Positions 2,584-30,993 of a DNA stretch of 64,000 bases are shown here, in pieces. Position numbers and translations under genes: made by a program. The notes beneath the pieces are model-generated. The model saw only the letters and a list, made by a program, of their open reading frames with translations. It searched no databases and was not told the DNA's origin. Every line of letters begins with the position of its first letter. Within the stretch, counting starts at the first letter, position 1. The stretch spans positions 2,262,501 through 2,326,500 of the forward strand of contig NZ_CP043028.1 of the NCBI RefSeq assembly GCF_008935055.1. The letters run 5' to 3'. The DNA is from Pseudobutyrivibrio xylanivorans (lineage in GTDB: Bacteria; Bacillota; Clostridia; Lachnospirales; Lachnospiraceae).

Positions 2584-4923
2584 ATGAAAAGTACTAATAG
2601 TTTTGTTTACAACTTGACATTAATTGGTGGACTCCTTTTATTTTTCTTTATTATCATTATGACCTTCGTGGGAGAATATTCGCTTTCAGACGAGAGAAGT
2701 TACACGGACATGACGATAGAGGATTTCAATGAGGGATGGAAGAGAATTCATTGGAATGGAATAGTTGAGGAGATTAGCGTTCCTGGAAACTATGAGGCGG
2801 AGGGGTCTCATGAATTTGTCATGCGAAATAAGGTGAAAGCATGGCAGGACAAGGACTGCTATTTGGGCTTCAATTCAAATAAGCAGGACGTGGAGGTGTA
2901 CGTTGGCGAGAAATTGCGATATACCTATTCTACAGCTAAGACCCGCCTTTTCGGTGATCATAGTCCGAGCATTATGGTCTTTGTTCCCCTCACACCAGCA
3001 GATAATGGGTCAACTATTAAGATTGTATTAAAGGGAAATAATAATTACTCAGGCGTTATAGACGGATTTATTATTGGAACACAGCTTGGCATAGTAAAAC
3101 ACATTTACGAAGAGGAGCGATACACACTACTTATGATATTAGTGTCTTTGACTTTGGGTGTTATTGCTTTCATTATTGGTGTCAGCGTAAAAATTGCGTA
3201 CAACAGGGCGATTTCGCTGTTCTTTGCAGGTTGGAGCGTAATCTGTGCTAGCATGTGGGCGCTTGCTGAGTCAAGCTGCCGACAACTGTTCGTGCCAAAC
3301 TATTCATTATTGTCATATTTAACCTACACAGCAATTGGAATGATTCCGATTGCAATGAGTCTTTACTTCGACAGACTGCAGCAGGGACGCTATCGAATGA
3401 TTTATATGTGCCTGGCGGTACTGGAAGAATTCTCTGTATTTGTAGCTATTATTCTTCAGTTCTACAATGATACTGATTTAAGCAATTTGCTTCAAATTTC
3501 ATTTATTGCATTCGCCCTTACTGTGGTTGCATATATTCTTACTTCTATTCCTGATTTGCTAGCGGGCCGTGTGAAGGCATACTGGCCAGAGTTTATTGGT
3601 GTCCTTGGCGCTATGTTTATGGGCGCTTTTCAGATGTATTACTATCAGACAAAGCATCCGATTATCATGAACCCGTTTTATCTAATGTGTGGCCTTGTTT
3701 TCCTGATGGTAATGGCTTACATCAGAGCATTGAGGGATATTAGAGATACTGAGAGAGAAATGTATGCTGCTGTTCAGGCTCATGATGCCAGCACTGCATT
3801 TATGACACGTATGTCCCACGAGATGCGAACACCAATCAATGCCATACTTGGTATGAACAAGATGATTCTTCGCGAGAGTAAGGAAGAAAATATCCTTGAT
3901 TATGCCAGAGATGTTAATGGCGCAGGTAATTATCTCCTTTCGATAGTTGATGAGGTCCTTGATTTAGCGAAGGTTACTGCAGGAAAATTTGAGATTTCCC
4001 CTGAGGACTATGATTTGATGGACATGATTCGCGAATGTTACGCACTGGTTCGTCCAAGGGCAAAGGCAAATCGTTTGTCATTTGAGGTGGACATGAGTGA
4101 TGTGCTTCCTTCAACACTTCGCGGTGACAAGGAGCGAATCATTCAGATAATTACAAACCTTTTGACAAATGCCATTAAATATACTCCTGAGGGCCGCGTT
4201 ACATTATCGGTTCAGGGCAAGATTAATGATGGAAAGCTGATGCTGATTGTGACGGTTACTGATACGGGAATTGGTGTGGCTGAGGAAAATATGCCATTCC
4301 TCTTTGAATCCTTCAGGCGTGTTGGTGAGTTTAACAGTAAACGAATAGAAGGTACGGGACTTGGTCTTACCATTACGAAGCAGTTGGTTGATTTGATGGA
4401 CGGAACAATTACGGTAGAGTCTGAGCTCGGAAAAGGCTCTACATTTACAGTAATGATTCCTCAGGAAATCCGTTCGGTTGAGCCTTGTGGAACATTCTCC
4501 ATGGGACCTAACGGAGATCGACGTGTCATGGATCGTCACGAAAACTTTGATGTGTTTGGCAAGATTCTTGTGGTTGATGATGTGGCAATTAATCTTCGAG
4601 TATTCTCGGTGCTTTTAAACAATACTGATATATCTGTGGATACAGCTCTTAGCGGTCCGGAGGCCATTGAGAAGATTAAGAGAAACAAATACGATATCAT
4701 CTTCCTTGATCATCTGATGCCTGGCATGGATGGATTGGAGCTTAAGACTCTCATTGATAATCTTCCTGATAATCCAAACAAGGAGACTCCAATTGTGATG
4801 CAGACGGCCAATGCAGTTGTTGGCGCCAAGGAAGAGTATGAGCGCCTTGGCTTCACCGACTACATCGCCAAGCCTATTAAGGAAGAAGAGTTGCGAAAGA
4901 TCATCCGTAAATATATAATTTGA
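2584..4923 (+). CDS. Membrane hybrid sensor histidine kinase with C-terminal receiver domain
   Basis: This 779-residue protein has an N-terminal membrane helix (residues 10-30) and a roughly 150-residue extracytoplasmic domain. A block of about seven membrane helices (about 175-385) follows, resembling 7TMR-DISM sensors. The kinase core comes next: H-box SHEMRTP with phospho-acceptor His412, N-box NLLTNAIKYTPEG, and glycine boxes DTGIGV and GTGLGL. A complete receiver follows (GKILVVDD to the end) with phospho-acceptor Asp709 in FLDHLMPGMDG and the conserved lysine in IAKPIK. No separate response regulator or HPt gene is adjacent, so the output partner is unknown. The short upstream region is shared with the divergent TPR-like gene. 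Confidence 0.93.
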   Translation: MKSTNSFVYNLTLIGGLLLFFFIIIMTFVGEYSLSDERSYTDMTIEDFNEGWKRIHWNGIVEEISVPGNYEAEGSHEFVMRNKVKAWQDKDCYLGFNSNKQDVEVYVGEKLRYTYSTAKTRLFGDHSPSIMVFVPLTPADNGSTIKIVLKGNNNYSGVIDGFIIGTQLGIVKHIYEEERYTLLMILVSLTLGVIAFIIGVSVKIAYNRAISLFFAGWSVICASMWALAESSCRQLFVPNYSLLSYLTYTAIGMIPIAMSLYFDRLQQGRYRMIYMCLAVLEEFSVFVAIILQFYNDTDLSNLLQISFIAFALTVVAYILTSIPDLLAGRVKAYWPEFIGVLGAMFMGAFQMYYYQTKHPIIMNPFYLMCGLVFLMVMAYIRALRDIRDTEREMYAAVQAHDASTAFMTRMSHEMRTPINAILGMNKMILRESKEENILDYARDVNGAGNYLLSIVDEVLDLAKVTAGKFEISPEDYDLMDMIRECYALVRPRAKANRLSFEVDMSDVLPSTLRGDKERIIQIITNLLTNAIKYTPEGRVTLSVQGKINDGKLMLIVTVTDTGIGVAEENMPFLFESFRRVGEFNSKRIEGTGLGLTITKQLVDLMDGTITVESELGKGSTFTVMIPQEIRSVEPCGTFSMGPNGDRRVMDRHENFDVFGKILVVDDVAINLRVFSVLLNNTDISVDTALSGPEAIEKIKRNKYDIIFLDHLMPGMDGLELKTLIDNLPDNPNKETPIVMQTANAVVGAKEEYERLGFTDYIAKPIKEEELRKIIRKYII

Positions 4924-4995
4924 TGTGAAGTATTACGTGAGCTGGTTAAAAAACATATGAGTATATAATGAGCTGGTTGCTCAGTACCTATAGAT

Positions 4996-5152
4996 AGCTG
5001 TAGCTGACAAGCTCTGATATTTCTTAAGTGAGAAATTTCTTGATTTGCAAAGCAAATCGAGAACATGACGAGCCCATTGCTTTAGCAATTTGCATGGGCG
5101 AGTATCCCGTTAGTCGAACTGAGAAATCATCAGGCTTGTAAGTGTAACAGCT
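4996..5152 (+). ncRNA. Candidate structured RNA, long variant (copy 1 of 4)
   Basis: This region repeats the pattern of the shorter element at 5489-5580. It has a basal stem AGCTGT/ACAGCT, then CAAGC/GCTTG, CTGAT/ATCAG and ATTTCT/AGAAAT. The apical conserved words AGTGAGA, ACATG and TAGTCGAAC are kept. Two extra hairpins are inserted into the loop: GATTTGC/GCAAATC near 5042-5060, and CCCA/TGGG near 5081-5097. No U-tract follows. It fills most of the gap between the histidine kinase and the small unknown gene. Keeping the core words while inserting hairpins in loops is what a functional RNA would do. I cannot match it to a named family. Confidence 0.55.
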
Positions 5153-5210
5153 AAGAGTATATTGAAAATGCAACCAGCGGAGTAGATAACCAGCGGATTA
5201 GGAGAATTTT

Positions 5211-5450
5211 ATGGGATTTAATCCAGCAGATTTATTTAAAGTTAGAAGTGCAGCAGAGACATTCAATTCAAATCACCCAAAGCTGCTTCCATTTTTTAAT
5301 GCGGTGAAGGGACGTGCAATGACTCCAGGTTCAGTCATTGAAATCGCAGTCACTGATTCAACCGGAGAGCGCATCGAGACCAACCTTCGAATCCAGGAAA
5401 GCGACCTGGAACTCATTCGTCTATTGACGGAGATGGGCATGAAAGGCTAA
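5211..5450 (+). CDS. Small hypothetical protein (79 aa)
   Basis: A 79-residue soluble protein starts at ATG 5211 after GGAGAATTTT. It begins MGFNPADLFK and ends with an acidic, leucine-rich helix (SDLELIRLLTEMGMKG). There is no signal peptide, no membrane segment and no recognised motif. It stands alone between two copies of the same candidate structured RNA, at 4996-5152 and 5489-5580, with more than 200 bases free on either side. Codon use matches its neighbours, so I treat it as a real gene of unknown function. It could be regulated together with, or by, the flanking RNA elements. Confidence 0.65.
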   Translation: MGFNPADLFKVRSAAETFNSNHPKLLPFFNAVKGRAMTPGSVIEIAVTDSTGERIETNLRIQESDLELIRLLTEMGMKG

Positions 5451-5488
5451 TTCGTATTTGCGTATTGGAATATTGCGAGAACTAGGAG

Positions 5489-5580
5489 AGCCCCAGTAGG
5501 CATCAAGCTCTTAGGTCTCTCAGTGAGACATGTAGTCGAACAGAGAGACTCTAAGGCTTGTAGCCGTAACTGGGGCTTTT
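5489..5580 (+). ncRNA. Candidate structured RNA / terminator hairpin (copy 2 of 4)
   Basis: This is a long hairpin. The basal stem is GCCCCAGT/ACTGGGGC, followed by GGC/GCC with CAAGC/GCTTG, CTTAG/CTAAG and GTCTCTC/GAGAGAC. The apical loop is AGTGAGACATGTAGTCGAAC. It ends in GGGGCTTTTG, so it can act as an intrinsic terminator for the small gene at 5211. The loop and the internal words are shared with copies at 30887-30984 and 15683-15778 (both on the opposite strand), while stem bases change in pairs. A plain terminator would not need a conserved loop. Confidence 0.65.
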
Positions 5581-5712
5581 GATGTATTGGTGGATTTTTG
5601 AAATCTTCCGTCAGTCTTCCGCAATTCTTCCGACTGCGCTCACCTGTCCGTCACATTCGTACAGTAAAGTAGCAGCATAGAGATTCACAAATTCGCAGGA
5701 AGGAGAATTCCT

Positions 5713-6429
5713 ATGGGACAAATTCAAAAAGTTTTTAATCGATACGAAAAGAAATTTTTACTGGATGAGCAGACATATCTGGCATTCAAGAAGGAGCTGG
5801 ATGAGTACATGTTAGAAGATGAGTACGGACTGCACACAATTCGAAATATATACTACGATACACCAGATGATGAGCTGATTCGAACCTCCATTGAGGGACC
5901 AAAATACAAAGAGAAGTTTCGAGTCAGATGCTACGGCAAGCCGACCTACGATAGCATGTGTTTTCTTGAGATAAAGAAGAAGTACAAGGGACTGGTCAAT
6001 AAAAGGCGAGTGGCAATTCCAATGGAGGAGGCAGAAACCTATCTGATAGATGGAAAAATGCCAAGTCATCCAAATCAGATTTTCAAAGAGATAGATTATT
6101 TCTTCTCACATTATCCAATCGAGCCGAAGCGCTACATCGCATATGACCGGTTGGCAATGTATGGTAAGGAGGATTCAGAGTTCAGAGTTACCTTTGATCA
6201 GAACATCAGAAGTCGTACCTGGAACCTGACACTGTACAGTGATGAGGATAACGAATATCTTTTGGAACCAGGACAGCGGCTGATGGAGGTTAAAATATCA
6301 GATGCAATGCCACTTTGGTTTGCAAGGCTTCTGTCTAAATACAGGGGTTATCCAACATCATTTTCCAAGTATGGAAATTTCTACAAGAAACAGCTTAAGG
6401 AAGCAGCAGAACATTCGTTAGCAGTATAA
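5713..6429 (+). CDS. VTC-domain protein, polyphosphate-polymerase-like
   Basis: This 238-residue protein has the triphosphate-tunnel fold of the VTC family. Visible signatures include NRYEKKFLL near the N-terminus, YYDTP, the basic strand KFRVRCYG and FLEIKKKYKG followed by NKRR. A later SRTW and an EVKIS strand supply further tunnel residues. In eukaryotic VTC4 this tunnel makes polyphosphate from ATP; for bacterial homologues the reaction is inferred. It starts after GGAGAATTCCT and lies 11 bases upstream of a DUF4956 membrane gene and a beta-helix lipoprotein gene. This arrangement recurs in Firmicutes and suggests a membrane-linked complex. Confidence 0.9.
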   Translation: MGQIQKVFNRYEKKFLLDEQTYLAFKKELDEYMLEDEYGLHTIRNIYYDTPDDELIRTSIEGPKYKEKFRVRCYGKPTYDSMCFLEIKKKYKGLVNKRRVAIPMEEAETYLIDGKMPSHPNQIFKEIDYFFSHYPIEPKRYIAYDRLAMYGKEDSEFRVTFDQNIRSRTWNLTLYSDEDNEYLLEPGQRLMEVKISDAMPLWFARLLSKYRGYPTSFSKYGNFYKKQLKEAAEHSLAV

Positions 6430-10813: not shown

Positions 10814-11156
10814 GGTGGTACCACCGCATTCTTTGTTTTTGAGGAAGCGGGGCATTGCTATTCTTGAGTGCAACAAGATAAGCAGGTTTTTTGAGAATTG
10901 GGGTACCCGTAGTGGTTTTTGGTACCACAAGGAATGTGGACTTTACTAATCTTGGGGTGTGCTGGTACCACAAGACTTGGAAAAGTGTAATTTCTTGAGG
11001 TACCATGAGCTGATTCGGCACCACCGGGATTGGTGAAATCTTGCAGATTGGGGTACTACACTACCTCAAGAATAGAGATTCGCTGTTTCCTTGGGGTACC
11101 ATTGGAAGCTTATAGTACCACTAGGATTAAAAAGCTAAAAATCTTGGGGTACCAAA
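10814..11156. repeat. Array of GGTACC hairpins (array A)
   Basis: About six short imperfect hairpins built from CTTGGGGTACC and GGTACCACAAG words are separated by 20-30 bases of unrelated sequence. The spacers include AAGGAATGTGGACTTT and GAAAAGTGTAATT. The same words and several of the same spacers recur in the same order at 13820-14166. The two arrays are in direct orientation and flank the nuclease-fold gene and the surface-protein gene. No convincing frame runs through it. It accounts for most of the 10601-11294 gap; the rest holds the terminator at 10656. Confidence 0.7.
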
Positions 11157-13819: not shown

Positions 13820-14166
13820 GAGGGCCCTTTGTTTTTGGATGAAATGAGGGGATTGTTGTTCTTCAGTGCAACAAGAAAGCAGATTTTTTGAAAATTGGGG
13901 TACCCAGAGAGGTTTTTGGTACCACAAGGAATGTGGACTTTTGTAATCTTGAGGTACGCTGGTACCACAAGACGGGGAAAAGCTGAATAGCTTGAGGTAC
14001 GGAAAGTGGATTTGATACCACCGTAATAATGGAAAAATTGAAGCTTGGGGTACTGTGGCGCCACAAGCTAGCTAATTTGCAGGATTCTTGGGGTACCGTT
14101 GAAGGCTAATTGTACCTCTCAATCTGAAAAAGACAGGATTGTTGGGGTACGCAACTGGTTGTATGG
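13820..14166. repeat. Array of GGTACC hairpins (array B)
   Basis: This is a diverged second copy of the array at 10814-11156, in the same orientation and order. Shared landmarks include GTGCAACAAGA, TTGGGGTACCC, TTTTTGGTACCACAAGGAA, TGTGGACTTT, GCTGGTACCACAAGAC and CTTGAGGTAC. Hairpin arms are better kept than spacers. It fills most of the 575-base gap between the surface-protein and CoA-transferase genes. The remaining bases hold the promoter of the CoA-transferase. Confidence 0.7.
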
Positions 14167-14314: not shown

Positions 14315-15655
14315 ATGGATTTTCAAGCTGAGTACAAGAAAAAGCTCACTACCGCAGCAGAGGCTGTAAAGGTAGTAAAGAGCGGTGACTGGGTAGACTA
14401 CGGTTGGTGCACTGGCACACCTGATGCATTGGATAAGGCACTTGCAGCACGCACTGATGAGCTTACAGACGTAAAGGTTCGTGGCGGTATTCTTATGAAG
14501 CAGCCAGCTATTTTTGATAGAGAGGATGCAGCAGAGCATTTCACATGGAACTCATGGCACATGGGTGGCATCGAGAGAAAGCTTATCAGCAGAGGATGCT
14601 CTTTCTATGCCCCAATCAGATATTCTGAGCTTCCAAGATACTATCGTGATCACATTGAGCCAAACGATGTTCTTATGATTGTGACAACTCCAATGGACAA
14701 CCATGGCTATTTCAACTTCGGACCAAATGCGTCACACCTTATGGCTGCAGTTGAGAAGTCAAAGCACATCATCGTAGAGGTTAATGAGAACATGCCTCGT
14801 TGCCTTGGTGGTTTTGAGGAAGGCATCCACATTTCAAAGGTTGATGCTATTGTTGAGGGTGAGAACCCAGCTATCCTTGAGATGGGTGGCGGCGGAGCTC
14901 CAACAGAGGTTGATAAGGCTGTTGCTAAGCTTATCGTTGAGGAGATTCCAAACGGTGCCTGCTTACAGCTTGGTATTGGTGGAATGCCAAACACAGTTGG
15001 TGCAATGATTGCCGAGTCGGACCTTAAGGATCTTGGTGTTCATACAGAGATGTATGTTGACGCTTTTGTTGATATTGCTCGCGCGGGAAAGATTACTGGT
15101 GCAAAGAAGAATATCGATAGATTCCGTCAGACATATGCTTTCGGTGCTGGTACAAAGAAGATGTACGATTACATGGATGAGAATCCAGAGCTTATGAGTG
15201 CACCTGTTGATTATACAAATGATATCCGCCAGATTTCGGCTCTTGATAATTTCATTTCTATCAACAATGCAGTTGATGTTGATTTATTCGGACAGATTAA
15301 TGCAGAGTCTGCTGGAACAAAGCACATTTCTGGTGCAGGCGGACAGCTTGACTTCGTGCTCGGTGCTTACCTTTCAAAGGGTGGAAAGAGCTTTGTTTGT
15401 CTTTCATCTACATTCACAACAAAGGATGGCACAGTAAAGAGCCGTATTCGTCCTACACTTGCAGAGGGCTCAATCGTAACTGATACACGTGCTAACACAC
15501 ATTATCTTGTTACTGAGTACGGCAAGGTTTGTCTCAAGGGACTTTCAGCATGGGAACGTGCAGAGAAGATTATTTCAATCGCACATCCTGACTTCCGCGA
15601 TGAGCTCATCGCAGAGGCTGAGAAGATGCATATCTGGAGACGCTCAAATAAATAA
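14315..15655 (+). CDS. but: Butyryl-CoA:acetate CoA-transferase
   Basis: This 446-residue class I-type CoA-transferase moves CoA from butyryl-CoA to acetate, releasing butyrate and acetyl-CoA. It is the last step of butyrate formation in many gut and rumen Lachnospiraceae. The sequence carries the family blocks [36 protein letters not shown] and [11 protein letters not shown]. Glu245 of HTEM aligns with the glutamate that forms the enzyme-CoA thioester. [19 protein letters not shown] and [16 protein letters not shown] also match. The start follows AGCGGAGGTTATT. The length is normal for the family. The closely related 4-hydroxybutyrate CoA-transferase is the main alternative, but the match to the butyrate enzyme is very good. 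Confidence 0.93.
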
Positions 15656-15682
15656 AAAACATTATATAGCGACCATTGTATG

Positions 15683-15778
15683 AGGCCCCTAGTTACGCCT
15701 ACAAGCCATGGTTAACTCCGTTCAACACATGTTTCACTTGAGTTACCCATGAGCTTGATGGCTACTAGGGGCCTTTTT
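15683..15778 (-). ncRNA. Candidate structured RNA (copy 3 of 4), also terminator for the CoA-transferase
   Basis: Read on the minus strand this is GGCCCCTAGT, GCCATCAAGC, CATGGGTAACTC, loop AAGTGAAACATGTGTTGAACG, then GAGTTAACCATG, GCTTGTAGGC and ACTAGGGGCC. The GGC/GCC pair of the other copies is here GCC/GGC, and GAC/GTC in the loop is AAC/GTT; both are compensatory changes. On the plus strand the hairpin ends in CCTTTTTCT, so it can terminate the CoA-transferase transcript. The sense strand of the RNA, if it has one, is therefore uncertain for this copy. Confidence 0.6.
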
Positions 15779-15876
15779 CTCCACTTGCGTTTTACGAAAA
15801 ATAATGTTATACATATAGTTAAAATAGTTTATATATATGCAAACTAAATGCTAATTACGCGAAGGGGGATTACACA

Positions 15877-17799: not shown

Positions 17800-17841
17800 A
17801 TAGAAGTAACGTTGGTGGGTTAAAAATTGGAGGAATTGAAT

Positions 17842-20800
17842 ATGAAGAGAGGTTATTTTAGCCGATTCGTATCAATGGTTCTGTCCATAGCTATGGTTTT
17901 TACAATGGGATTTGATCCCACATTAGTTATGGCAGAAGAAGGAGGCGAAAGCTATGTCCTCACTGGCATAGCTGACCTCGAGGGCGATGTAAAAGAGCAG
18001 CGCCTGGAGGTTGGTTCATCCGAAAGTGACATAGTATTCCCAAGTACGTTGACGGGAATAATTGAGCATTCCGAGGAAGTCTTAGTTGAAGAGTCTGAGG
18101 AAGAGGATGCAATAGAAGATGCAGTTTCAGAAGAAAACACTGAAATTGCAAATCCTGAGACGGAAGGTGCAGAGTCTGTTGCAGAGGAGACTCCGGAAGA
18201 GGAGACTGCAGAGTCAGTTAAAGAAGAAGCTCCAGCAGTAGAATCAGAACCGAAAGTGGAGCCTGAAATAACAGAGGCACCAGAGCCAGTTGCAGAGTCA
18301 GAACCAGCTATAGAGCCGGAACCAACAATTGAGTCAGTTCCAGAGGAAATTCCAGTGGAAGTGCCTGTATTTGAAGCAGTTCCTGAGCCAGCTCCTGAAG
18401 CAGCTCCAGTGGAAGAGGCTGAGCCAGAGGCGTTAGTTGATCCGGTTGCATTTATTATTGATTTAGTTTTCCCTGCTATTACAGCTAAGGCTGCAGATGG
18501 AGGTGTAATTGCTGAGGTTTCACATACTACAGCAGATATTATTTCTCCTGCAGAAGAATCTGAAGAAGCATCAACAGCTGAAGCATCAGAGGAAAATGCT
18601 GAGCCAGCTGAAGATGAAGCTACATCAGAAGCGGCAGAGGCAGAAGCTGCGGACCTTAAGGTGAAGACTGTCATAACAAAGGAAGAGATTACAATTAAGG
18701 ATGTTACATGGAAATTAGACGCCGAGAAGAGTTCTGCGCCTAGTTTTGATGGAACAGTTGAGGGTGCAACATATGTTTATACACCTGTCATTAGTCCTAA
18801 ATATATTGTAGAGTCAGAGCTTCCTACAATCACTGTAGTTATTGTTAAGACTCAGTTCGAATTTGAGCAGTCTGTAACAGTTGACGGTGTTGTAATTACT
18901 GTAAAGGCAGACAAGGGCGTATTCCCTAAGGATGCGACTTTGAACGCAAGAAGAGCCACAGCAGCTGAAGAAGCAGTAGCAGAGGAAGCTGTTGAAGGTG
19001 AAAGAGAAGCTTCTGATAAGGTAGCTGCATCTTATACATTTGATATTACAATTTTGGACAAAGATGGTAACGAGCTTCAGCCTGATACTTCTAAGGGAAG
19101 AGTAAAGGTTGCATTTACTCTTGAAGAGGCTAAGAACGACAATTTGGAGGCTGATATTTATCATATTACTGATGAAAATCCAGCAGCTCCAACAGCAGAA
19201 AAGCTTGATACTGATAATTACGCTTCTACAGTAGAGGCTGAGACCACAGGATTCTCATTCTATACAGTAGAGTTTACTTATGGTGGATTCCAATATGTGC
19301 TTATTGGTGGTACTACAATTGCGCTTTCTGAGATTTTAGAAGCATTGGAGATTGAAGGAACAGTAGTTGCTGCTACAAGCTCTAATGAGTCACTATTTTA
19401 TGTTAGAAAGTACATCTTTAATGAATCGACACAGGGGCATCCTAAGCCATGGATGGAAGAAAGTCCAGATGGTCAGTGGTATCTGGTATCATGCCAGGCA
19501 TTTGATACTCAGGAGCTTCTTACTTTAGATATGGAGGATGGCTCTCATTATGAGATAGAGGTAACAGATAGTGCAGGTGTAGTTGGCGCTCATAAGGATA
19601 CAAATACTAGTGGTGATGTATTCTTAGGTGGTCGTTTTATTGAAGTAGGTATTGCAAAGACAGGTTCTTTTGGTACAGCAGGTTCTCCTAATACTGATGC
19701 TGGATTCCATCCTGTTTACAGTGGAAATTTAATAGGTCTTAGTGTAGATAAAGATGGATTTGGTGAGGGAAATGCTCCTACAACATGTGATTTCTTCCTT
19801 CCGGGTAGTCCAGAAGAGCGATACAATGTAGCCTATAAAATTGATGGAACTACTTATGAAAATCCTAATGCAGAAAGAAATAGAGTTGGTTGGCCTACTC
19901 CTAAGCAGGCTCCTACTACAGTAGATGAGTCAGTGATAGAAAAAGGTGAATTACAGGCTACAACAACAGGTATTACTCGTGAAGGTGTTAAGATGGTTAC
20001 AACCGTTTCCTTCAACGAGGAAGATTATAGCTTCTTAACAAAAGTTACACTTACAAACAATACTGGAAAGAAAATAACAGATTTGCGATGGGTTCGTTCG
20101 TTTGATCCAGACCAAAACGCTCAAATTACGGGTGGAACGTATTCAACCTATAACAAGGTTATTAGTAATCCTAATTCATCGAAACCTTCTGAAAATGCAT
20201 GCGCAATGGTAGTTGCAAAGGGTGGAACAAATCAGGAGGCGTTCTTCTTTGCGGCATTTGATGACAGAGCAAGAGCTTCTATTTTAGGAAGTCTTTCACC
20301 TAGTTCGGCTTATGATTCAAGATTGTGGAAAGATGATGACAGCATGCCTACAGAAGTTCTTGAAGAAAACTACACAGGCACTGATGGATATAATAATGAT
20401 GATGTTGGTATAGCTTTAACATTTAATCTTGGTGAGCTTGAAAATGGCGAGTCTACAACTCTTGAATATTATTCAAGCTTGGACCCTGATGTAGCAAATA
20501 CTTTCAATAAGCTTAACGGTAAAATTAACTACAATGGTGAAACTATTGATGGTTTTACACCAAGCACAACATATTTAATTACAGTATATAGAGATTCCAA
20601 AGGAAAATACTTCAGAGTAGATTCAGATTCTAAGGGAAGTATCATGATTGAAGACAAGGACAACAATGGTAATGACTACAGCTTATTTGGAAAATCTATT
20701 AGAGTTCTTGAATTAAGTGAAGAATCAGGTATTCAGTATTTTGATGTAAATCCACGTCCAGTTGCATTGGATTTAAACGAGGATGAGGATGATATTGATA

Positions 20801-23800
20801 TTGGCGCTGAGTCAATAAAGATTACATTAGATAGTAGTAAAGAAAATCAGGAATATCGTGTTTATACTGCAAGAGGAAAGGAGATTACAGGACAGGATTG
20901 GACATCTCCTACTGGCAATAAGCTAACACTTACTGGATTAAAGAAGAATACCAGCTATACTATCAAGGCTCATGTGAAAGCAAGTGCTTCAACACCTGAA
21001 TCCAAGATTTCTGATGGTATAACTTTGACTACTACAGAAAACGATGTAACTGTTGATTATGATGATGAGGTAATCGAAGGCCTTAAGCCAGATAAAGAGT
21101 ATGAGATAACTGAGACTTATGAAGATCCTACAACTCATGAGAGGAAGAATAGAAAGCGCAGGGTTAAATCTGATAGAAATGGACGTATTCCATTTGAGGG
21201 TACAGATGAAGATGGCGACCCATACGATTTTACTGGCGAAGAAATCATTATAAGAGAGCCAGGCTCAGATGATGATGGCGATGATGATTCACCTGAGGAG
21301 ATTATTAAGAAGAAAATCGACGGACGTCCAAAGGCTGATGATGTTACGCCAATAGATACAGGTGATCCTGACGACCCAACGAAGCCAGGCGTTGTTGCAG
21401 CTACAGGTAGAACTATCACAATTAAGCCTGCAGAGCGAGATCAGGAATATCGTATATACGATAGCGCAGGAAATGAACTTCCTGGTCATGGCTGGGTTAC
21501 ACCAGAAAAGGATACAGATAAAAATTACAAGGTTGTATTTACAGACCTTGAATATGACAAGGAATATATAGTTAAGACAAGAAAGGCAGCAACAGATGGC
21601 AAGCCAGCTTCTGAGCCAACAGGCGGCACGGAAGTTAAAACTGATGATGAGACAGATGAAGAAGATGTTGATGTTAATTATGATGACGAGGTAATCGAAG
21701 GCCTCAAGCCAGATACAGAGTATGAGATAACTGAGACTTATGAAGATCCTACAACTCATGAGAGGAAGAAGAGAAAGCGCAGGGTTAAATCTGATAGAAA
21801 TGGACGTATTCCATTTGAGGGTACAGATGAAGATGGCGACCCATACGATTTTACTGGCGATGATATTACTATAGGCGAACCAGATACAGATGGTGGTGAA
21901 GATGACCCTGAACCTGTTATTCCTCGCTTGCCTATATCAGGCCGTCCAGCCCCAACTGGAATTGATCCTATAGACACGGGATCTCCATCTGGAACCGGCA
22001 GCGAGGTTGAAACAAGAGGTACATATATTGTAGTTAAGCCTGCAAACATGAAGCAGGAATATCGTATATACGATGAAGACGGAAATGAAATTGAAGGAAG
22101 AGATTGGGTTAAGCCTACTTTAGAAGGTGACGTCCCAGTCGTGGTATTTGACGGCCTTGAGCCAGAAACAAAATATGTCATCAAGACTAGACTTGCAGCT
22201 ACAGATGATAAGCCTGCATCAGATCCTGATGAGGGTATAGAGGAAACTACTGGTACTGAAAGTGATGACGTAGATGTTGATTATGAAGATGAAACTATTG
22301 GAGGTCTCTTACCTAATACTGACTATGTAGTTGAGTACGATGATGACGATGATCCTGAGACCCCTGATAAAGAAATCAGAGTAAAGACAGATGAGGAAGG
22401 AAAGCTTCCAATTGAAGGCAAAGACAGAACAGGAAAGCCTTATGACCTGACAGGCAAAAAGCCAGTCAAGTTCTATAAGTATCCAAAGAAGACTGATAGT
22501 GAACCTATAACAAAGGATATTGAAGGTCGTCCAACATCAGATGACCCTGTTACACCAATATATATAGGCACAGGTGATACAGATGACCCAACAAAGCCAG
22601 GTGTTGTTGACGCTACAGGTAGAACTATCACAATCAAGCCTGCAGAAAAAGATCAGGAATATCGTATATACGATAAGGAAGGTAACGAAATCTCAGGTTA
22701 CGGCTGGGTTAAGCCAACAAAGGATACTGATGGAAAATATAAAGTAGTATTCGAAGACTTAGATTATGACAAGGAATACACAGTTAAGACAAGGAAGGCA
22801 CCTACATCAGGTAAGCCAGGCTCAGAGCCTACAGCAGGTGTGCCAGTTAAGACTGATGATGTTACTGATGAAGATGTAGATGTTGACTATGAAGACGAGA
22901 ACATCGAAGGCCTTAAGCCTAACACCGAATACGATGTTTACGAGATTGAAGAAGGTGAAGAAGGCACAAGTGGAACTGGCGGAAGAGGAAGAAGACACAG
23001 AGTAAAGACTGATTCTAGAGGAAAGCTTCCATTTGAAGGTAAGGATGAAGACGGTAAGGAATATGATTTCACAGGTAAGAAGCTTGAAATCGTTGAGCCA
23101 GGCAAAGAAGATACAACTGGTATCAGAGAGGACATTCCAGATCGTCCAGATAGTACTGAGGTAAAGGAACCAAAAGAGGAAGATATTGAGTCTAAGGGTA
23201 CATCTGTAACCATTTATGATGCAGATCCAGATCAGGAATATCGTATATACGATGAAGAAGGAAACGAGATTCCAGGTCGCGGTTGGACTAAGCCTAATGA
23301 CGATGGCACAGTAATATTTAAGGACCTTGACTACAACAAGCGTTACATCGTAAGAGCTAGAAAGGTACCTAAGAAGACAGAAGGAACAACAGGCGGAACA
23401 GATACAACAGGTGGAACACCAGGTTCTGAGCCATCAGAGGGTATTGAAGTAACAACCAAGGATGAATCAGATGGAACAGATGTTGAAATCGATTATGAGG
23501 ATGAGGTAATCGAAGGTCTCAAGCCAGATACAGAGTACGAGATAACAGAGACATATGAAGATCCTACAACTCATGAGAGAAAGACGAGAAAGCGCAAAGT
23601 TAAATCAGATAGACATGGACGTATTCCATTTGAGGGTACAGATGAAGACGGTGAACCATACGATTTAGCAGGTGAACCAATTACCATTAGTGAAGATAAG
23701 TCAGATGACCCTGATTCACCAGATGGAGAAGATTCTGAGCCTATTATCAAAACTCATATAGAAGACCGTCCATCAACTGATGATATTGACAAAGTTGCTG

Positions 23801-26800
23801 ACGATGAATTAAAGACAAAGGGCAAGTCAATCACAATCAGACCAGCTGATGAAGCTTTAGAGTACAGAATTTACGACAAGGATGGAAATGAGCTTGAGGG
23901 CCGTGATTGGGTTAAGCCTGATAAGGACCTTGTAGTAATCTTTGATGATTTGGATTACGACACAGATTACATCATTAGGGCTAGAATTGCGCCTACAGAT
24001 GACACACCAGGTTCAGAGCCTAAGGATGTTAAGGAAGTAAAGACTGATGATGTAAAACCAGATGATGTTATTATCGATTACGAGGATGAGGAGATTGAAG
24101 GTCTCAAGCCTGAAACAGAATATGAGATAGGCATAGATGACGACAATGACCCTACGACTCCACGTAAGAAGATTAAAGTAAAAACTGATAAGCATGGACG
24201 TATCCCATTTAAGGGTACAGAAGTTGGAACAGGCGGAACAGGTGGAACAGGTGGTACACCAAGACCAGAGTATGATTTGTTAGATAAAGATATTGAGATT
24301 TCAGAATCTGGTTCAGACAAAGACCCTATAGGTAAAGACATAGGCGAACGCCCTGAGATTATAAAAGATGGCGAGCATAAGAACTTTACACCACCTACTT
24401 CTGGTGATACTACACCTAAGGGTACAACTATAACCATCAATCCAGCAGAGCCAACTCAGGAATACCGCGTATACAAGAAGGTTGATGACAAGCTTGTAGA
24501 AGTTGCAGGTCAAGACTGGACTAAGCCAACAGGTGGCAAGGTTGTATTTACAGACTTAGACTTTGGTACAGAATATATTGTAAAGACTCGAATCGCTCCA
24601 ACAAGCGAAAAGCCAGCTTCATTACCATCTGATGATGTAGTAACTGTAACTACCAAGGATATGGATGATCCTGTAGTAGATTACGTGGATGATGAAATTG
24701 GTGGATTTAAGCCTGATACAACATACGAAATCTATGTAGGCGATAGCACCGAACCAATTATTGTAAAGACTGACAAAGACGGAAAGTTTGATATTGAAGG
24801 TAAGGACAAAGATGGTAAGGGCTATGACCTTGAAGGCAAGACAATCAAGGTAAAGGAAAAGAAGAAGGAAGGTGAAGGCGAAGGAGCAGTGTCTGACCCT
24901 ATCACATTAGGCTCACGTCCATCAGCTCCTACACCAGACGGTACAGACATTTATGGCACAACAGGAGCAGGTACATCTGACAAGCCAATAGTAGATGATA
25001 TTGATACTATTAACATCTACCAGGAGTCTATCGAAATACTTGATCTCAACAAGAAGAATAAGGAACTTGAATATCGTATTTACGATGAATATGGCAATGA
25101 AATCGACGGTCAGGATTGGGTTAAGCCTGACAAGAATGGAAATGTCAAATTCAAGGGATTAGAGAAAGGAAAGAAATATACAATCAAGGCTAGAAAGCCT
25201 GCAACAGAAAAGAAGCCAGCTTCTAAGCCAACAGGTACAATCCTGACTGTTACGACAAACGATGGTATAGGCTTAACTCCTAAGGAAGGTGCAGAAGGCG
25301 ACGAGACTGTACTTGAAGGTGAGCCAAATGAGAAGGATGAAATCGGTGGATTCAAGCCTAATACAGAATATGAAGTAAGCTACGATGACGATGGTGATCC
25401 AACTACTCCAGATAAGAAGATTGTAGTGAAATCTGACAAAGATGGAATAATCAAGGTAGATGGTGACGATGAGGAAGATAAGCACTTCTCACTCTATGGC
25501 AAGAAGATTAAGGTTAGAAAGAAAGGCTCTAAGGACAAAGATACAATTATCGATGTAACGGATACTCGTCCAGAAGCTCCTACATTTAGTGAAGAGGAGT
25601 GGGGCAAACATGATGAAACCTTAGAAACTGATACTGAGAAGATTAAGATTTATCAGAAGGAAATCAGAATTACAGGTCTTTCAGAAGAAGAGAAGGAACT
25701 TGAGTATCGTGTATACGGTCCTGACGGTGAAGAGCTGAAAGAGTTTGACTGGGTTAAGCCTGACGAAGATGGAACTCTTCACTTATACAGCAAGACTGAT
25801 AAGGATGGCAAGCTCCAGCTTGATAAGATGCTTCTTGGTGAAACAGAATATATCATCAAGGCTAGAAAGCCAAAGGTAGAGAGTAAACCAGCTGACGGCG
25901 ATACACCAGCTACAGAAGGCTCTCCTGCTTCTGATGCAGTTATCGTTGTCAAAGTAAAGACAGATCCTGTTGTTTACCCAGAGATAGATGTTATCAAAGA
26001 GGTAATCGACGGCTGCAAGCCAAATACAGTATATGATATTACTGTTAAGGATGGAGATACATCTACAGTTTACAAGGTAAAGTCTGATGCGGATGGAAAT
26101 CTCATTCTTGAAGGTAAGGACAAGGATGGCAAGGACTTTAGTCTCGTTGGAAAGGATGTAGTTGTAAAGAAGTCAGGTTCAGCAGATGATTATCCATCTG
26201 ATGAACTTAAGATTCCAACTCGTCTAGCTCCTATTAAGTTTGTAGAAGAAGGCAGCGAGACATCAACAGAGTTAATCACTGAAGATACTGAGCAGGTTAC
26301 TCTTTCAGAGTCTGTAATCTTTATTAACGGATTAACAGGCGCTAAGTCAGATTATGAATATCGTTTGTATGACGCTGATGGAAATGAAATCCCTGGAATG
26401 GAATGGGTGAAGGCATCAGACGGACTACTGTTATTTACTGACTTACCAAGTGATACCGTATATACGGTAAAGGCTAGAAAACCAGCTACAAGCAAGGAAT
26501 TAGCTACACTTCCTGTAGATACAGGTCTGAAGATTAAGACAGATGTCTCTTATGAGCCAACAGTAAATTACGATACTGACAGAATTGAAGGCTTAAAGCC
26601 TAATACAGAGTACGATGTTTTTGTTGGAGATAAGATATTCTATCTTAAGACAGATGCAAATGGTGGATTTGCTCTAAGCGGTGAAGATTACAATGGGGAT
26701 GCGTACAATTTCGAAGGTCAGGATTTGGAAATCCAGATTAATGGAAAGTACGAATTTAAGTCACTTAGCGTTCCAACCCGCCCAGAGCCAACACCAGAGA

Positions 26801-27846
26801 TAATTCCAACACCAGAAGTAACACCAACACCAGAGGTAACTCCTACACCTACGCCAACGCCAACTCCAACACCACGCGGTGGAGATGAAGAAGTACACTA
26901 TCCTGTAATTCCTAATGAAGAAGTACTCGAGGAGATTTTGCCAGAATTAACGCAGGAAGATGCTGATGAGACTACACCTGCACGTACAAGAGAAGCAATT
27001 ACGGAAATAATCGAAGAAGTGGGACTTGGCAAGGGTAACATCATCGACCGTGGCGACATCTGGGGCGATATGAGTAACGAGACAAAGCAGAAGTTACTTG
27101 ATAAGCTTGATGCATCAGGCGGCGAGATTATCCTGGCAGAAGACCTTGAAAACATGGAAGCTGTCGCTGTAAAGGATAGACCAATTGCCTTTGTAATAGG
27201 CGAAGGTTCGGTTATCGTTACAATCGAATCTACAGACACTACAAGAACAAATGCAGGTCTTGTTGATGCAGCAGCAGTTGCAAAGTCAATTCTTACAGAT
27301 GAGCAGAGAGCAGCAGTTGCAGCAGGTAGTGTCCTTGAAATCAGAGTAGAGGTAACACCTCTTGATGATGCTACAATACCTGCAGCAGATAAGCAGATTA
27401 TCGAAGACGGAGTGACAGAATACGCAGAGTCAATTCCAAATCTGGCAATGGCAGATTATATCGATATCAGCTTATACTTCAGAATTGATGATAGTGAATG
27501 GAGTCAGATTACTGATACTGACCCTATCGATATCGTGATTGATATTCCAGACAGCTATAAGGGCTTGTCTGATAGATATTTCATCATGAGAGCACATCAG
27601 GGTAAGACTACACTCCTTGAGGATCAGGACAATGATCCAGATACAGTTACTATTTCAACAGGTGAGTTCTCAACATATGCACTTATGTATGAGGAGAGAG
27701 CAGCAGTTGCAACAGTTGATACTGTAGTGGAAGATACAAATAACGGATTGTTATTTGGCCTTAGCTACTTCGCATGGCTTGGAATACTTGCAGCAGCTAT
27801 GGCAATATTCCTGTTCTTCATACTGTTCAAGAAATCTGATAGATGA
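17842..27846 (+). CDS. Giant repeat-built surface adhesin (3334 aa)
   Basis: This exported protein has a signal peptide (MKRGYFSRFVSMVLSIAMVFTMGF). An acidic Glu/Ala/Pro-rich stalk (about residues 60-210) and two non-repeated domains (about 220-900) follow. Then about ten alternating modules run to about residue 2980. One module type starts IEGLKPDTEYEI and contains VKSDRNGRIPFEGTDEDG; the other, fibronectin-III-like, has QEYRIYDxxGNEIxGxxWVKP. A TPTPTP linker, a roughly 270-residue C-terminal domain and a final membrane helix before KKSDR complete it. No LPXTG is present. GGAGG at 17829 supports ATG 17842. Very low cysteine and high acidity suit a long fibre. It lies inside the arabinan-enzyme region; a role in binding plant wall or other cells is inferred. 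Confidence 0.88.
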   Translation: MKRGYFSRFVSMVLSIAMVFTMGFDPTLVMAEEGGESYVLTGIADLEGDVKEQRLEVGSSESDIVFPSTLTGIIEHSEEVLVEESEEEDAIEDAVSEENTEIANPETEGAESVAEETPEEETAESVKEEAPAVESEPKVEPEITEAPEPVAESEPAIEPEPTIESVPEEIPVEVPVFEAVPEPAPEAAPVEEAEPEALVDPVAFIIDLVFPAITAKAADGGVIAEVSHTTADIISPAEESEEASTAEASEENAEPAEDEATSEAAEAEAADLKVKTVITKEEITIKDVTWKLDAEKSSAPSFDGTVEGATYVYTPVISPKYIVESELPTITVVIVKTQFEFEQSVTVDGVVITVKADKGVFPKDATLNARRATAAEEAVAEEAVEGEREASDKVAASYTFDITILDKDGNELQPDTSKGRVKVAFTLEEAKNDNLEADIYHITDENPAAPTAEKLDTDNYASTVEAETTGFSFYTVEFTYGGFQYVLIGGTTIALSEILEALEIEGTVVAATSSNESLFYVRKYIFNESTQGHPKPWMEESPDGQWYLVSCQAFDTQELLTLDMEDGSHYEIEVTDSAGVVGAHKDTNTSGDVFLGGRFIEVGIAKTGSFGTAGSPNTDAGFHPVYSGNLIGLSVDKDGFGEGNAPTTCDFFLPGSPEERYNVAYKIDGTTYENPNAERNRVGWPTPKQAPTTVDESVIEKGELQATTTGITREGVKMVTTVSFNEEDYSFLTKVTLTNNTGKKITDLRWVRSFDPDQNAQITGGTYSTYNKVISNPNSSKPSENACAMVVAKGGTNQEAFFFAAFDDRARASILGSLSPSSAYDSRLWKDDDSMPTEVLEENYTGTDGYNNDDVGIALTFNLGELENGESTTLEYYSSLDPDVANTFNKLNGKINYNGETIDGFTPSTTYLITVYRDSKGKYFRVDSDSKGSIMIEDKDNNGNDYSLFGKSIRVLELSEESGIQYFDVNPRPVALDLNEDEDDIDIGAESIKITLDSSKENQEYRVYTARGKEITGQDWTSPTGNKLTLTGLKKNTSYTIKAHVKASASTPESKISDGITLTTTENDVTVDYDDEVIEGLKPDKEYEITETYEDPTTHERKNRKRRVKSDRNGRIPFEGTDEDGDPYDFTGEEIIIREPGSDDDGDDDSPEEIIKKKIDGRPKADDVTPIDTGDPDDPTKPGVVAATGRTITIKPAERDQEYRIYDSAGNELPGHGWVTPEKDTDKNYKVVFTDLEYDKEYIVKTRKAATDGKPASEPTGGTEVKTDDETDEEDVDVNYDDEVIEGLKPDTEYEITETYEDPTTHERKKRKRRVKSDRNGRIPFEGTDEDGDPYDFTGDDITIGEPDTDGGEDDPEPVIPRLPISGRPAPTGIDPIDTGSPSGTGSEVETRGTYIVVKPANMKQEYRIYDEDGNEIEGRDWVKPTLEGDVPVVVFDGLEPETKYVIKTRLAATDDKPASDPDEGIEETTGTESDDVDVDYEDETIGGLLPNTDYVVEYDDDDDPETPDKEIRVKTDEEGKLPIEGKDRTGKPYDLTGKKPVKFYKYPKKTDSEPITKDIEGRPTSDDPVTPIYIGTGDTDDPTKPGVVDATGRTITIKPAEKDQEYRIYDKEGNEISGYGWVKPTKDTDGKYKVVFEDLDYDKEYTVKTRKAPTSGKPGSEPTAGVPVKTDDVTDEDVDVDYEDENIEGLKPNTEYDVYEIEEGEEGTSGTGGRGRRHRVKTDSRGKLPFEGKDEDGKEYDFTGKKLEIVEPGKEDTTGIREDIPDRPDSTEVKEPKEEDIESKGTSVTIYDADPDQEYRIYDEEGNEIPGRGWTKPNDDGTVIFKDLDYNKRYIVRARKVPKKTEGTTGGTDTTGGTPGSEPSEGIEVTTKDESDGTDVEIDYEDEVIEGLKPDTEYEITETYEDPTTHERKTRKRKVKSDRHGRIPFEGTDEDGEPYDLAGEPITISEDKSDDPDSPDGEDSEPIIKTHIEDRPSTDDIDKVADDELKTKGKSITIRPADEALEYRIYDKDGNELEGRDWVKPDKDLVVIFDDLDYDTDYIIRARIAPTDDTPGSEPKDVKEVKTDDVKPDDVIIDYEDEEIEGLKPETEYEIGIDDDNDPTTPRKKIKVKTDKHGRIPFKGTEVGTGGTGGTGGTPRPEYDLLDKDIEISESGSDKDPIGKDIGERPEIIKDGEHKNFTPPTSGDTTPKGTTITINPAEPTQEYRVYKKVDDKLVEVAGQDWTKPTGGKVVFTDLDFGTEYIVKTRIAPTSEKPASLPSDDVVTVTTKDMDDPVVDYVDDEIGGFKPDTTYEIYVGDSTEPIIVKTDKDGKFDIEGKDKDGKGYDLEGKTIKVKEKKKEGEGEGAVSDPITLGSRPSAPTPDGTDIYGTTGAGTSDKPIVDDIDTINIYQESIEILDLNKKNKELEYRIYDEYGNEIDGQDWVKPDKNGNVKFKGLEKGKKYTIKARKPATEKKPASKPTGTILTVTTNDGIGLTPKEGAEGDETVLEGEPNEKDEIGGFKPNTEYEVSYDDDGDPTTPDKKIVVKSDKDGIIKVDGDDEEDKHFSLYGKKIKVRKKGSKDKDTIIDVTDTRPEAPTFSEEEWGKHDETLETDTEKIKIYQKEIRITGLSEEEKELEYRVYGPDGEELKEFDWVKPDEDGTLHLYSKTDKDGKLQLDKMLLGETEYIIKARKPKVESKPADGDTPATEGSPASDAVIVVKVKTDPVVYPEIDVIKEVIDGCKPNTVYDITVKDGDTSTVYKVKSDADGNLILEGKDKDGKDFSLVGKDVVVKKSGSADDYPSDELKIPTRLAPIKFVEEGSETSTELITEDTEQVTLSESVIFINGLTGAKSDYEYRLYDADGNEIPGMEWVKASDGLLLFTDLPSDTVYTVKARKPATSKELATLPVDTGLKIKTDVSYEPTVNYDTDRIEGLKPNTEYDVFVGDKIFYLKTDANGGFALSGEDYNGDAYNFEGQDLEIQINGKYEFKSLSVPTRPEPTPEIIPTPEVTPTPEVTPTPTPTPTPTPRGGDEEVHYPVIPNEEVLEEILPELTQEDADETTPARTREAITEIIEEVGLGKGNIIDRGDIWGDMSNETKQKLLDKLDASGGEIILAEDLENMEAVAVKDRPIAFVIGEGSVIVTIESTDTTRTNAGLVDAAAVAKSILTDEQRAAVAAGSVLEIRVEVTPLDDATIPAADKQIIEDGVTEYAESIPNLAMADYIDISLYFRIDDSEWSQITDTDPIDIVIDIPDSYKGLSDRYFIMRAHQGKTTLLEDQDNDPDTVTISTGEFSTYALMYEERAAVATVDTVVEDTNNGLLFGLSYFAWLGILAAAMAIFLFFILFKKSDR
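20521..26790 (+). repeat. Intragenic tandem modules of the giant adhesin
   Basis: Eleven IxGxxPxTxY modules and ten EYRxYxxxGxE modules alternate. Some pairs are nearly identical in DNA: 21096-21239 and 21717-21860 (144 bases) differ at one base, although flanking parts of the same modules have diverged. A third relative lies at 23496-23660. This points to recent duplication or gene conversion and to possible size variation between strains. Confidence 0.85.
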
Positions 27847-29689: not shown

Positions 29690-30646
29690 ATGAAAATGGA
29701 CAAGGATTTTAAGTTTAACAAACCGTGGATTCTGCAACGCGCAGATCCCTATGTCTACAGACACACTGATGGGAAATATTATTTCACCGCATCTGTGCCT
29801 GAATATGATAAGATTGTACTCAGATGCAGCGACAGTCTTGAGGGGCTAAAGGATGCTGCAGAGCTTGAGGTATGGCATAAGCACGACAAGGGCCCTATGT
29901 CTAAGCATATTTGGGCACCGGAGATTCATTATCTTTTCGGCAAATGGTACATCTATTTTGCTGGAAGTGATGTTGATGATATTTGGGCGCTTCGCCCTTA
30001 TGTTTTGGAGTGTCAGGGCGACGACCCTATGAAGGATGCCTGGATTGAAAAGGGTAAAATCACAAGAGCAGACTCTGACGAGTTTTCTTTTGAAGCCTTT
30101 TCTCTTGATGCCACTGTTTTTGAGAATAAGGGTCAGTGGTACTATATCTGGGCTGAAAAGGTGGGAGTTGGCAAGCAGATTTCAAATCTCTACATTGCCC
30201 GCATGAAAAACGGATATACGTTAGAGACAGACCAGGTGCTTCTTACAACACCAGACTATGACTGGGAGCGCCACGGCTATTGGGTAAATGAAGGCCCTGC
30301 TGTGATTAAGCGTGACGGCAAGATTTTCATGACCTATTCTGCCAGCGATACAGGAATCAATTATTGCATGGGAATGCTGACTGCAGATGAGGACAGTGAT
30401 TTGCTGGACCCACTTTCATGGAAGAAGGAGCGCTATCCAGTGCTTGCTTCATCTACTGAGCATGTGGTATACGGCCCAGGTCATAATTCATTCACTGTGG
30501 ATGAGGAAGGCAATGATATTCTGGTTTATCATGCAAGGACAGAGACGGAAATCGTGGGTGACCCTCTCTACAATCCAAACCGCCATGCCATGCTTATGAA
30601 GTTTGAATTTAAGGATGGAAGACCAGTATTTGACTATGATAGATAA
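29690..30646 (+). CDS. Cytoplasmic GH43 family arabinofuranosidase-type enzyme
   Basis: This 318-residue protein has no signal peptide. The GH43 residues are Asp19 (RADPYVYRHTDGKYYFTAS), Asp140 (SLDATVFENKGQWYYIWAE) and Glu201 (WVNEGPAVIKRDGKIFMTYS), followed by VYGPGHNSFTVDEEG. This compact single-domain form is typical of exo-acting alpha-L-arabinofuranosidases that trim imported arabino-oligosaccharides. GGAGATTAT precedes the start. It follows the endo-arabinanase-like lipoprotein gene closely, and the downstream small DUF6171-like gene overlaps its end by 11 bases. The precise linkage specificity cannot be read from sequence. Confidence 0.85.
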   Translation: MKMDKDFKFNKPWILQRADPYVYRHTDGKYYFTASVPEYDKIVLRCSDSLEGLKDAAELEVWHKHDKGPMSKHIWAPEIHYLFGKWYIYFAGSDVDDIWALRPYVLECQGDDPMKDAWIEKGKITRADSDEFSFEAFSLDATVFENKGQWYYIWAEKVGVGKQISNLYIARMKNGYTLETDQVLLTTPDYDWERHGYWVNEGPAVIKRDGKIFMTYSASDTGINYCMGMLTADEDSDLLDPLSWKKERYPVLASSTEHVVYGPGHNSFTVDEEGNDILVYHARTETEIVGDPLYNPNRHAMLMKFEFKDGRPVFDYDR

Positions 30647-30884: not shown

Positions 30885-30886
30885 TA

Positions 30887-30984
30887 CAAAAGCCTCCAGT
30901 TACGGCTACAAGCCTGAGAGTTTCTTTGCTCGACTACATGTCTCGCGCCAGAAACCTCAGAGCTTGATGCCTACTGGAGGCTTA
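30887..30984 (-). ncRNA. Candidate structured RNA (copy 4 of 4) between convergent genes
   Basis: On the minus strand this reads AGCCTCCAGT, GGCATCAAGC, CTGAG, GTTTCT, loop GCGAGACATGTAGTCGAGC, then AGAAAC, CTCAG, GCTTGTAGCC and ACTGGAGGCTTTTG. Compared with the copy at 5489, the stems change in pairs (CTTAG/CTAAG to CTGAG/CTCAG; TCTC/GAGA to TTTC/GAAA), while the loop is almost unchanged. It lies just past the stop of the minus-strand regulator gene and has a short T-run in that direction. Confidence 0.65.
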
Positions 30985-30993
30985 TTCGTTACT

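Follow-up and report, generated by a model that had tools for sequence, protein, structure and literature searches.

What kind of sequence recurs, between genes, as a large hairpin whose stems change in matching pairs while a part of its interior stays fixed: a transcription terminator, a regulatory RNA or a genomic parasite? The question is raised by a stretch of 64,000 nucleotides of the Pseudobutyrivibrio xylanivorans chromosome (‘the window’ hereafter means this whole stretch of 64 kb), in which an earlier note, made by inspection of the letters, had described four intergenic copies of such an element. The coordinates and orientations given there were correct; a rereading of the sequence and a covariance model built from 28 genome copies lead to the same four places (Table 1). 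The model finds exactly four matches in the window (E values from 3e-27 to 2.4e-18), of which the three short ones match by construction, since all three are in the model's input, while the long copy is absent from that input. Compared with shuffled sequence, the four copies fold with z scores of -8.1, -8.1, -7.5 and -5.5. In the long copy approximately 75 nucleotides replace the short apical loop, and the predicted fold has a base like that of the short copies and a longer top. Copy 2 carries a T-run on its plus-strand side and could therefore serve as the terminator of the plus-strand gene. Elsewhere in the window lie an open reading frame of 3339 amino acids (17827-27846) with internal repeats of roughly 600 bp and, outside the hairpin copies, a 178-nt direct repeat (10880-11057 and 13877-14054, 80% identity).

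Table 1. Positions in the window of the four hairpin copies and of the structural parts of copy 1
Feature	Position	Strand	Basis	Remarks
Copy 1, terminator-like form	5482..5584	+	covariance model, fold	between a 79-aa ORF (5211-5450) and a VTC-domain gene (5713-6429)
Copy 1, outer stem, 5' arm	5486..5497	+	fold	GAGAGCCCCAGU
Copy 1, outer stem, 3' arm	5569-5580	+		ends in UUUU
Copy 1, 1x3 internal loop	5498 / 5566-5568	+	fold	unpaired A opposite GUA
Copy 1, 2x2 loop below the CAAGC helix	5502-5503 / 5561-5562	+		AU / UA
Copy 1, CAAGC helix with GCUUG	5504..5508 / 5556-5560	+		nearly invariant
Copy 1, bulged U above the CAAGC helix	5509	+		
Copy 1, variable upper hairpin	5510..5555	+		GA/GA mismatch; apical loop AUGUA 5530-5534
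Copy 2	15678..15779	- (model's sense strand)	covariance model	neighbors, both +: acetyl-CoA hydrolase/transferase gene (14315-15655) and GH43 gene (from ~15886)
Copy 3, terminator-like form	30885..30988	-	covariance model	between convergent genes: winged-helix protein gene (30994-31914, -) and DUF6171 gene (30603-30884, +)
Copy 4, long intercistronic form	4986..5162	+	covariance model, fold	flanked by a hybrid histidine kinase gene (2584-4923) and the 79-aa ORF

The term ‘four-copy’, which is exact for the window, does not hold for the chromosome, where the family occupies at least 152 distinct places (166 aligned rows, less 12 antisense matches and 2 repeats). An exact pattern is found at 55 places in the genome and its reversed control at none; the half-motif GTARNNNNCAAGC occurs 208 times, as opposed to 24 times for its reversed control; and the covariance model gives at least 144 matches, a figure that is a floor because only 150 of 1323 candidates were scored. 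The main chromosome carries all of these (at least 144) listed matches, with none listed on the two smaller replicons. The genome of P. xylanivorans MA3014 comprises 3,584,491 bp in total, of which the chromosome makes up 3,412,851 bp (PMC7523725).

As far as searched, the repeat is specific to the genus Pseudobutyrivibrio. Among 31 genomes it was found in all 19 of that genus (the genome under study included) and in none of the 12 from other families, with 1 to 127 matches per genome among the matches listed. The search of Lachnospiraceae genomes with a covariance model, which had been proposed as a check on the original observation, was run with stricter filters on one genome per genus, and returned the genome under study (1 of 150) and nothing in the other 149 genera. 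A search across the order, also with stricter filters, matched 10 of 392 genomes, all of them Pseudobutyrivibrio and hence 1 of 173 genera, the unmatched genomes being mostly unlisted. When applied to 485 kb of relatives' DNA, spread over 28 loci, the model finds just two copies, both in the same locus.

The fold of a short copy is a single long rod, which consists (from its base) of an outer stem, a 1x3 internal loop (A/GUA), three base pairs, a 2x2 loop, the CAAGC/GCUUG helix, a bulged U and a variable upper helix with a GA/GA-type mismatch by the tip. The unit measures approximately 85-105 nt, and long forms reach about 175 nt. The conserved loop of the earlier description survives as an internal one: the A/GUA loop and the CAAGC/GCUUG helix are kept across the family (the A opposite GUA is exact in 133 of 143 in-register copies), whereas the apical loop varies and can take up an insert of some 70-75 nt.

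The compensating stem changes that first drew attention to the element are real. In the 28 genome copies both sides change at 15 of 24 pairs, and 96.9% of cells are paired, against 78.9% for shuffles and at most 45.1% for slid partners; the corresponding covariation scores are 0.485, 0.148 and at most 0.094. Across 152 copies and 19 stem pairs there are 2715 Watson-Crick combinations, 90 G.U, 13 A.C, 64 others and 6 that are gapped. The invariant pairs of one alignment (A2) are partly invariant by choice, since its copies were picked by an exact CAAGCTC...GGCTTGTA pattern, and a wider set of copies, which includes about 12 antisense matches, contains a CAATC/GATTG-type change in about 15 rows. 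Pairing of the outermost A/T-rich flanks of the intercistronic form is weakly supported, in a set that includes approximately 12 antisense matches. Individual letters change but the fold persists, and the comparison with shuffles and slid partners, together with an alignment from a single operon junction that is described below, supports the selection on structure that had been proposed from four copies.

The same pairs indicate which strand folds. If mutation alone were responsible, we infer that G.U and A.C combinations would be expected at about equal rates; after removal of the two G.U-richest pairs, they stand at 47 versus 12 (nominal binomial P of 5e-6, for copies that are not independent of one another). 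This excess points to the modeled (sense) strand as the folding strand, either as RNA or as single-stranded DNA. Because the 20 copies that lie antisense to both neighboring genes, one of which is copy 2 of the window, show the bias as well (7 to 1), simple co-transcription with those neighbors does not explain it.

That last observation favors a rival account, which we regard as possible but doubtful: that the repeat is a selfish DNA element of the MITE or REP-like kind, that its RNA has no function, and that positions 3' of genes are merely sites where it is tolerated. The pairing of its arms would then arise from quasi-palindrome correction, from gene conversion between copies, or from a transposase that needs a hairpin of single-stranded DNA. 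DNA hairpins tolerate G.T better than A.C, so that the strand bias is compatible with single-stranded DNA. However, a process that corrects palindromes would be expected to remove the mismatched A/GUA loop, and the exactness of that loop in nearly all in-register copies argues against any simple correction of a DNA palindrome.

The position of the copies relative to genes bears on the same alternative from both sides. Gene context was assigned to 144 copies with a crude, purpose-built gene caller. Only two copies lie inside genes; the 142 extragenic ones comprise 95 in tandem arrangements and in sense, 25 at convergent sites after a gene on the same strand, 20 antisense to both neighbors, one between divergent genes and one without a downstream gene. 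Adjacent gene pairs with a copy number 114 tandem, 1 divergent and 25 convergent (a set that includes about 12 antisense matches), compared to 181, 18 and 4 for copy-free pairs from those stretches; convergent sites are thus enriched and divergent ones avoided, relative to a baseline that is itself biased towards the neighborhoods of the element. The near absence of copies within genes and between divergent genes is what a tolerated parasite might leave behind, but the strong preference for the sense orientation (a gene in the same direction precedes 121 of the 142 extragenic copies) speaks against it. Among the junctions with copies are dnaK-dnaJ, gap-pgk, ilvD-ilvB, purM-purN and rnc-smc, as judged from a reading of protein ends by eye; the genes beside copies are, again by eye, unrelated to one another.

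Two forms of the repeat can be distinguished. A ‘terminator-like’ form (45 of 152 copies) has a stem extended outward, with a G+C-rich base, an A-rich 5' flank and a T-rich 3' flank; 15 of the 43 that have context are convergent, and those in tandem arrangements lie a median of 119 nt from the next gene. The second form (107 of 152) lacks the extended stem and has flanks like TTTTAAATGA...GGACTATA; 74 of its 98 copies with context are tandem and in sense, with a median gap of 37.5 nt before the next gene, and a ribosome-binding-like motif follows within 50 nt in 53 of the 107, versus 7 of the 45 terminator-like copies. TTT is found in the 3' flank of 25 of 50 extended-stem rows (antisense rows included). 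A pattern scan for intrinsic terminators reports none at the copies, the scan being blind to hairpins with such interiors. The sorting of the extended-stem and intercistronic forms by gene context counts against a repeat that is purely selfish.

Another proposal is that these are ordinary intrinsic terminators which share a large hairpin by chance. The extended stem and the A-rich and T-rich flanks of the first form agree with that proposal, yet most copies belong to the second, which has no such stem and mostly sits in tandem and close to the next gene; moreover, a terminator has no need of a fixed internal loop or of a shared sequence. We consider this explanation quite improbable, and the covariation and the fixed internal loop bear out the earlier judgment that the element is more than a plain terminator.

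A riboswitch-like family or a family of small trans-acting RNAs might instead be suspected, given that covariation around a fixed loop resembles a structured RNA and that many intercistronic copies precede ribosome-binding-like motifs. This is very improbable: more than 150 copies lie beside genes that appear (by eye) to be unrelated, the apical loop is variable and carries inserts, and promoter-like sites near the copies in the window are no more frequent than chance. The last point, along with the finding that most copies lie in sense and are either internal to a transcription unit or terminal in it, tells against the small-RNA interpretation put forward in the earlier note. Its other suggestions come closest: an element of 3' UTRs or intercistronic spaces, or a protein-binding site, agrees best with the evidence, though in the form of a dispersed repeat family and not of a single regulatory RNA. 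Its failure to match a named RNA family was confirmed: none of the 4227 families of Rfam 15 matches the window above its gathering score, on which ground Rfam membership was rejected, and a permissive search of 4900-5712 yields four weak matches, all to eukaryotic families and below cut-offs.

The gap-pgk operon junction is naturally filled or empty across two dozen genomes. Thirty loci were reduced to 24 genomes by leaving out three without an anchor and three that were second pieces of genomes already listed; the junction is filled in 13 and empty in 11. At the 11 empty sites a terminator is followed by a few bases and then by the pgk ribosome-binding site, and the covariance model finds no match in these loci. 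At the 13 filled sites the repeat lies between the terminator and the ribosome-binding site, and in the genome under study and one other it is nested. That a separate terminator precedes the repeat is a further argument against its being an ordinary terminator. Mean identity among the filled sites is 96% in the motif columns, 61% in the upper helix and 66% in the 10-nt flanks (the two nested sites enter as their inner copy, which lowers the figure for the flanks), while the gap and pgk stretches of the relatives match those of the genome under study at 84-99%. The alignment of this junction has 14 rows (13 of them distinct sites, and one a second copy elsewhere in its locus), with changes on both sides at 16 of 24 pairs and 94.6% of cells paired; none of 500 shuffles scores as high on four of five covariation measures, and the fifth (further pair types) is equaled by 170 of the 500. 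The family as a whole offers unusually clean evidence that a shape, and not a sequence, is kept. The nested pair of the genome under study is predicted to fold as a single continuous rod. A possible target-site duplication, ATTTA, can be made out by eye, although the ends of the repeat are not sharp. The presence and absence of the repeat at this junction, where a site left empty in relatives agrees with a MITE, the nested copies and the difference in upper helices between species at one and the same site are all consistent with a selfish element; they also support the mobile origin proposed below.

Other sites are filled more sparingly. At dnaK-dnaJ (two loci without anchors, one second piece and one further locus having been left out) 3 of the 26 genomes in which both anchors are present carry the repeat (the genome under study, G015 and G188); the others have different hairpins or shorter sequence, and in two of them the genes are genuinely separated by just 3 nt. 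In loci L340, L341, L344, L354 and L360 the junction is taken up by hairpins of other families, unrelated to the repeat, and those of L340 and L341 have no match in Rfam. In the slot of copy 3 the model finds a copy in 6 of 20 loci (that of the genome under study and five others), and by coordinates copies are present in genomes G004 and G008 too; in these seven relatives the copy is oriented, relative to the flanking genes, opposite to that in the window. Most of the other readable loci hold terminator-like hairpins or unrelated palindromes. A palindrome that four genomes have in this slot (L301, L304, L308 and L313) is built of GCCTTCCCCC and GGGGGAAG-like arms around a GCGTAGCAGACGGATGAGGG interior, with an extra insert in L308 and L313. 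The TwoAYGGAY RNA (RF01731) scores above threshold at L311:1110-1269, L312:2936-3087 and L075:340-500, the first two falling by coordinates within the copy-3 slot.

In the slot of copy 2, a copy is present in one of 19 relatives' loci (G013), oriented as in the window and with a wholly different upper helix, and most other relatives have terminator-like hairpins. That most relatives read at these two slots hold other, mostly terminator-like hairpins lends the terminator explanation some support; the slots are thus reused, and the repeat can occupy a position that holds a terminator in other species. Insertion into the loop of an existing terminator was considered for copies 2 and 3, but finds no support in the relatives' terminators, whose stems are different. 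The neighborhood of the VTC gene is non-syntenic in 28 relatives' loci, so that these loci cannot tell whether relatives have empty sites where copies 1 and 4 lie.

On the chromosome, six copies are clearly nested in another copy (383119, 2205454, 2890788, 3101921, 3114425 and 3115939; chosen by eye from nine that a pattern listed among the 144), and further copies look nested, with degraded outer arms. Five of six long copies have a common insert of approximately 70 nt at the same apical point, and the insert of the long copy in the window differs from it. This multi-hairpin insert (L092:1404-1575, L075:3311-3483, L099:1491-1662, L132:1485-1656 and L073:4069-4240), whose host copies differ in sequence, is possibly another mobile hairpin, one with this loop as its target. 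At L072:1501-1699 and L075:1501-1701 there are two pairs of opposite-strand copies with an overlap of a few bases. The ends of the repeat are fuzzy (in a set that includes about 12 antisense matches).

A mobilizer was sought among the Y1 transposases of the genome under study, which has three Y1_Tnp genes of equal score, IS200-like by reading (L031, L032 and L033). No repeat lies near any of the three, so that an IS200 or RAYT mobilizer was rejected and no autonomous partner was found among these genes; the lack, in this search, of a transposase with flanking copies also weighs against the selfish account. An origin from phage or plasmid was set aside when one copy gave no blastn match in phage and plasmid records, and a strict pattern has no match in viral contigs.

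Taken together, the evidence points to a short interspersed hairpin repeat, specific to Pseudobutyrivibrio, that was probably dispersed by non-autonomous copying and has been kept as an mRNA structure. Against this reading speak the fuzzy ends of the repeat, the failure to find an autonomous partner among the Y1 transposases, the antisense copies with their G.U bias, the mere two copies in 28 loci of relatives and the one covariation measure that shuffles can equal. Once transcribed, its RNA would fold into one rod at the ends of genes or between them. Where its base is long and G+C-rich and a U-run follows, it would end transcription and cap the 3' end, while the intercistronic form without a U-run would protect the mRNA or mark it for cleavage, leaving neighboring genes unequally expressed. 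A host protein (of the RNase III type, or another binder of double-stranded RNA) may recognize the two fixed parts, A/GUA and CAAGC. A bolder version, which we think unlikely, is that the formerly mobile hairpin has been domesticated as a genus-wide intercistronic RNA module, with a dedicated protein that reads A/GUA and CAAGC and processes or stabilizes more than 100 operon mRNAs. If so, gene dosage within operons would be set by copies that are gained, lost and nested, and the remainder of the helix would be free to turn over.

As far as the searches reach, the family is an undescribed one in a common rumen genus: no description of it was found in Rfam and the open-access literature, although it may be described elsewhere, and the available portion of the MA3014 genome paper (PMC7523725) does not mention it. 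The terminator-like form shares with intrinsic terminators a G+C-rich base, an A-rich 5' flank and a T-rich 3' flank, but the repeat differs from them in its large conserved interior and in that most copies lack a U-run. YPAL (in Yersinia) and EFAR (in Enterococcus) are small palindromic repeats in transcripts, which by description differ from the present repeat in taxon. ERIC/IRU and Correia elements, likewise compared by description and found in other taxa, resemble it as small palindromic repeats in transcripts, and ERIC and Correia elements can act as cleavage sites (PMC3049150). BOX, RUP and SPRITE of Streptococcus pneumoniae, for which effects on co-transcribed genes have been proposed, are similarly dispersed and strongly folded, with modular length variants and insertions into one another (PMC3049150). 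By their descriptions the repeat is set apart from them; in BOX it is the number of boxB copies between A and C that varies, whereas in the present repeat the internal loop is fixed and entire helices around it undergo compensating changes.

The repeat is read as REP/BOX-like in its distribution. REP/BIME elements are high-copy extragenic palindromes of 20-40 bp, tagged at one end by a GTAG that is unpaired, and have associated RAYT transposases; like the repeat, they follow genes, between tandem as well as convergent neighbors, and are plausibly transcribed as hairpins (PMC3733652). In contrast, the present unit is 85-105 nt long, the G and T of its GTAG are paired in 159 and 162 of 164 rows (about 12 antisense rows included), and none of the three Y1 loci of the genome under study has the repeat, whereas a RAYT gene is flanked by its REPs; for these reasons of size, GTAG pairing and the lack of an associated RAYT in that genome, membership in the GTAG-REP class was rejected. 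The clean evidence for a conserved shape and the natural presence and absence at one operon junction make a long-standing question testable: do palindromic repeats of this dispersed kind live merely as parasites, or do they do work in the mRNA? The family is akin to REP, BOX and ERIC-like repeats, and a similar preference for the 3' ends of genes has been described, and similar effects at the level of RNA proposed, for repeats of this type (PMC3733652, PMC3049150).
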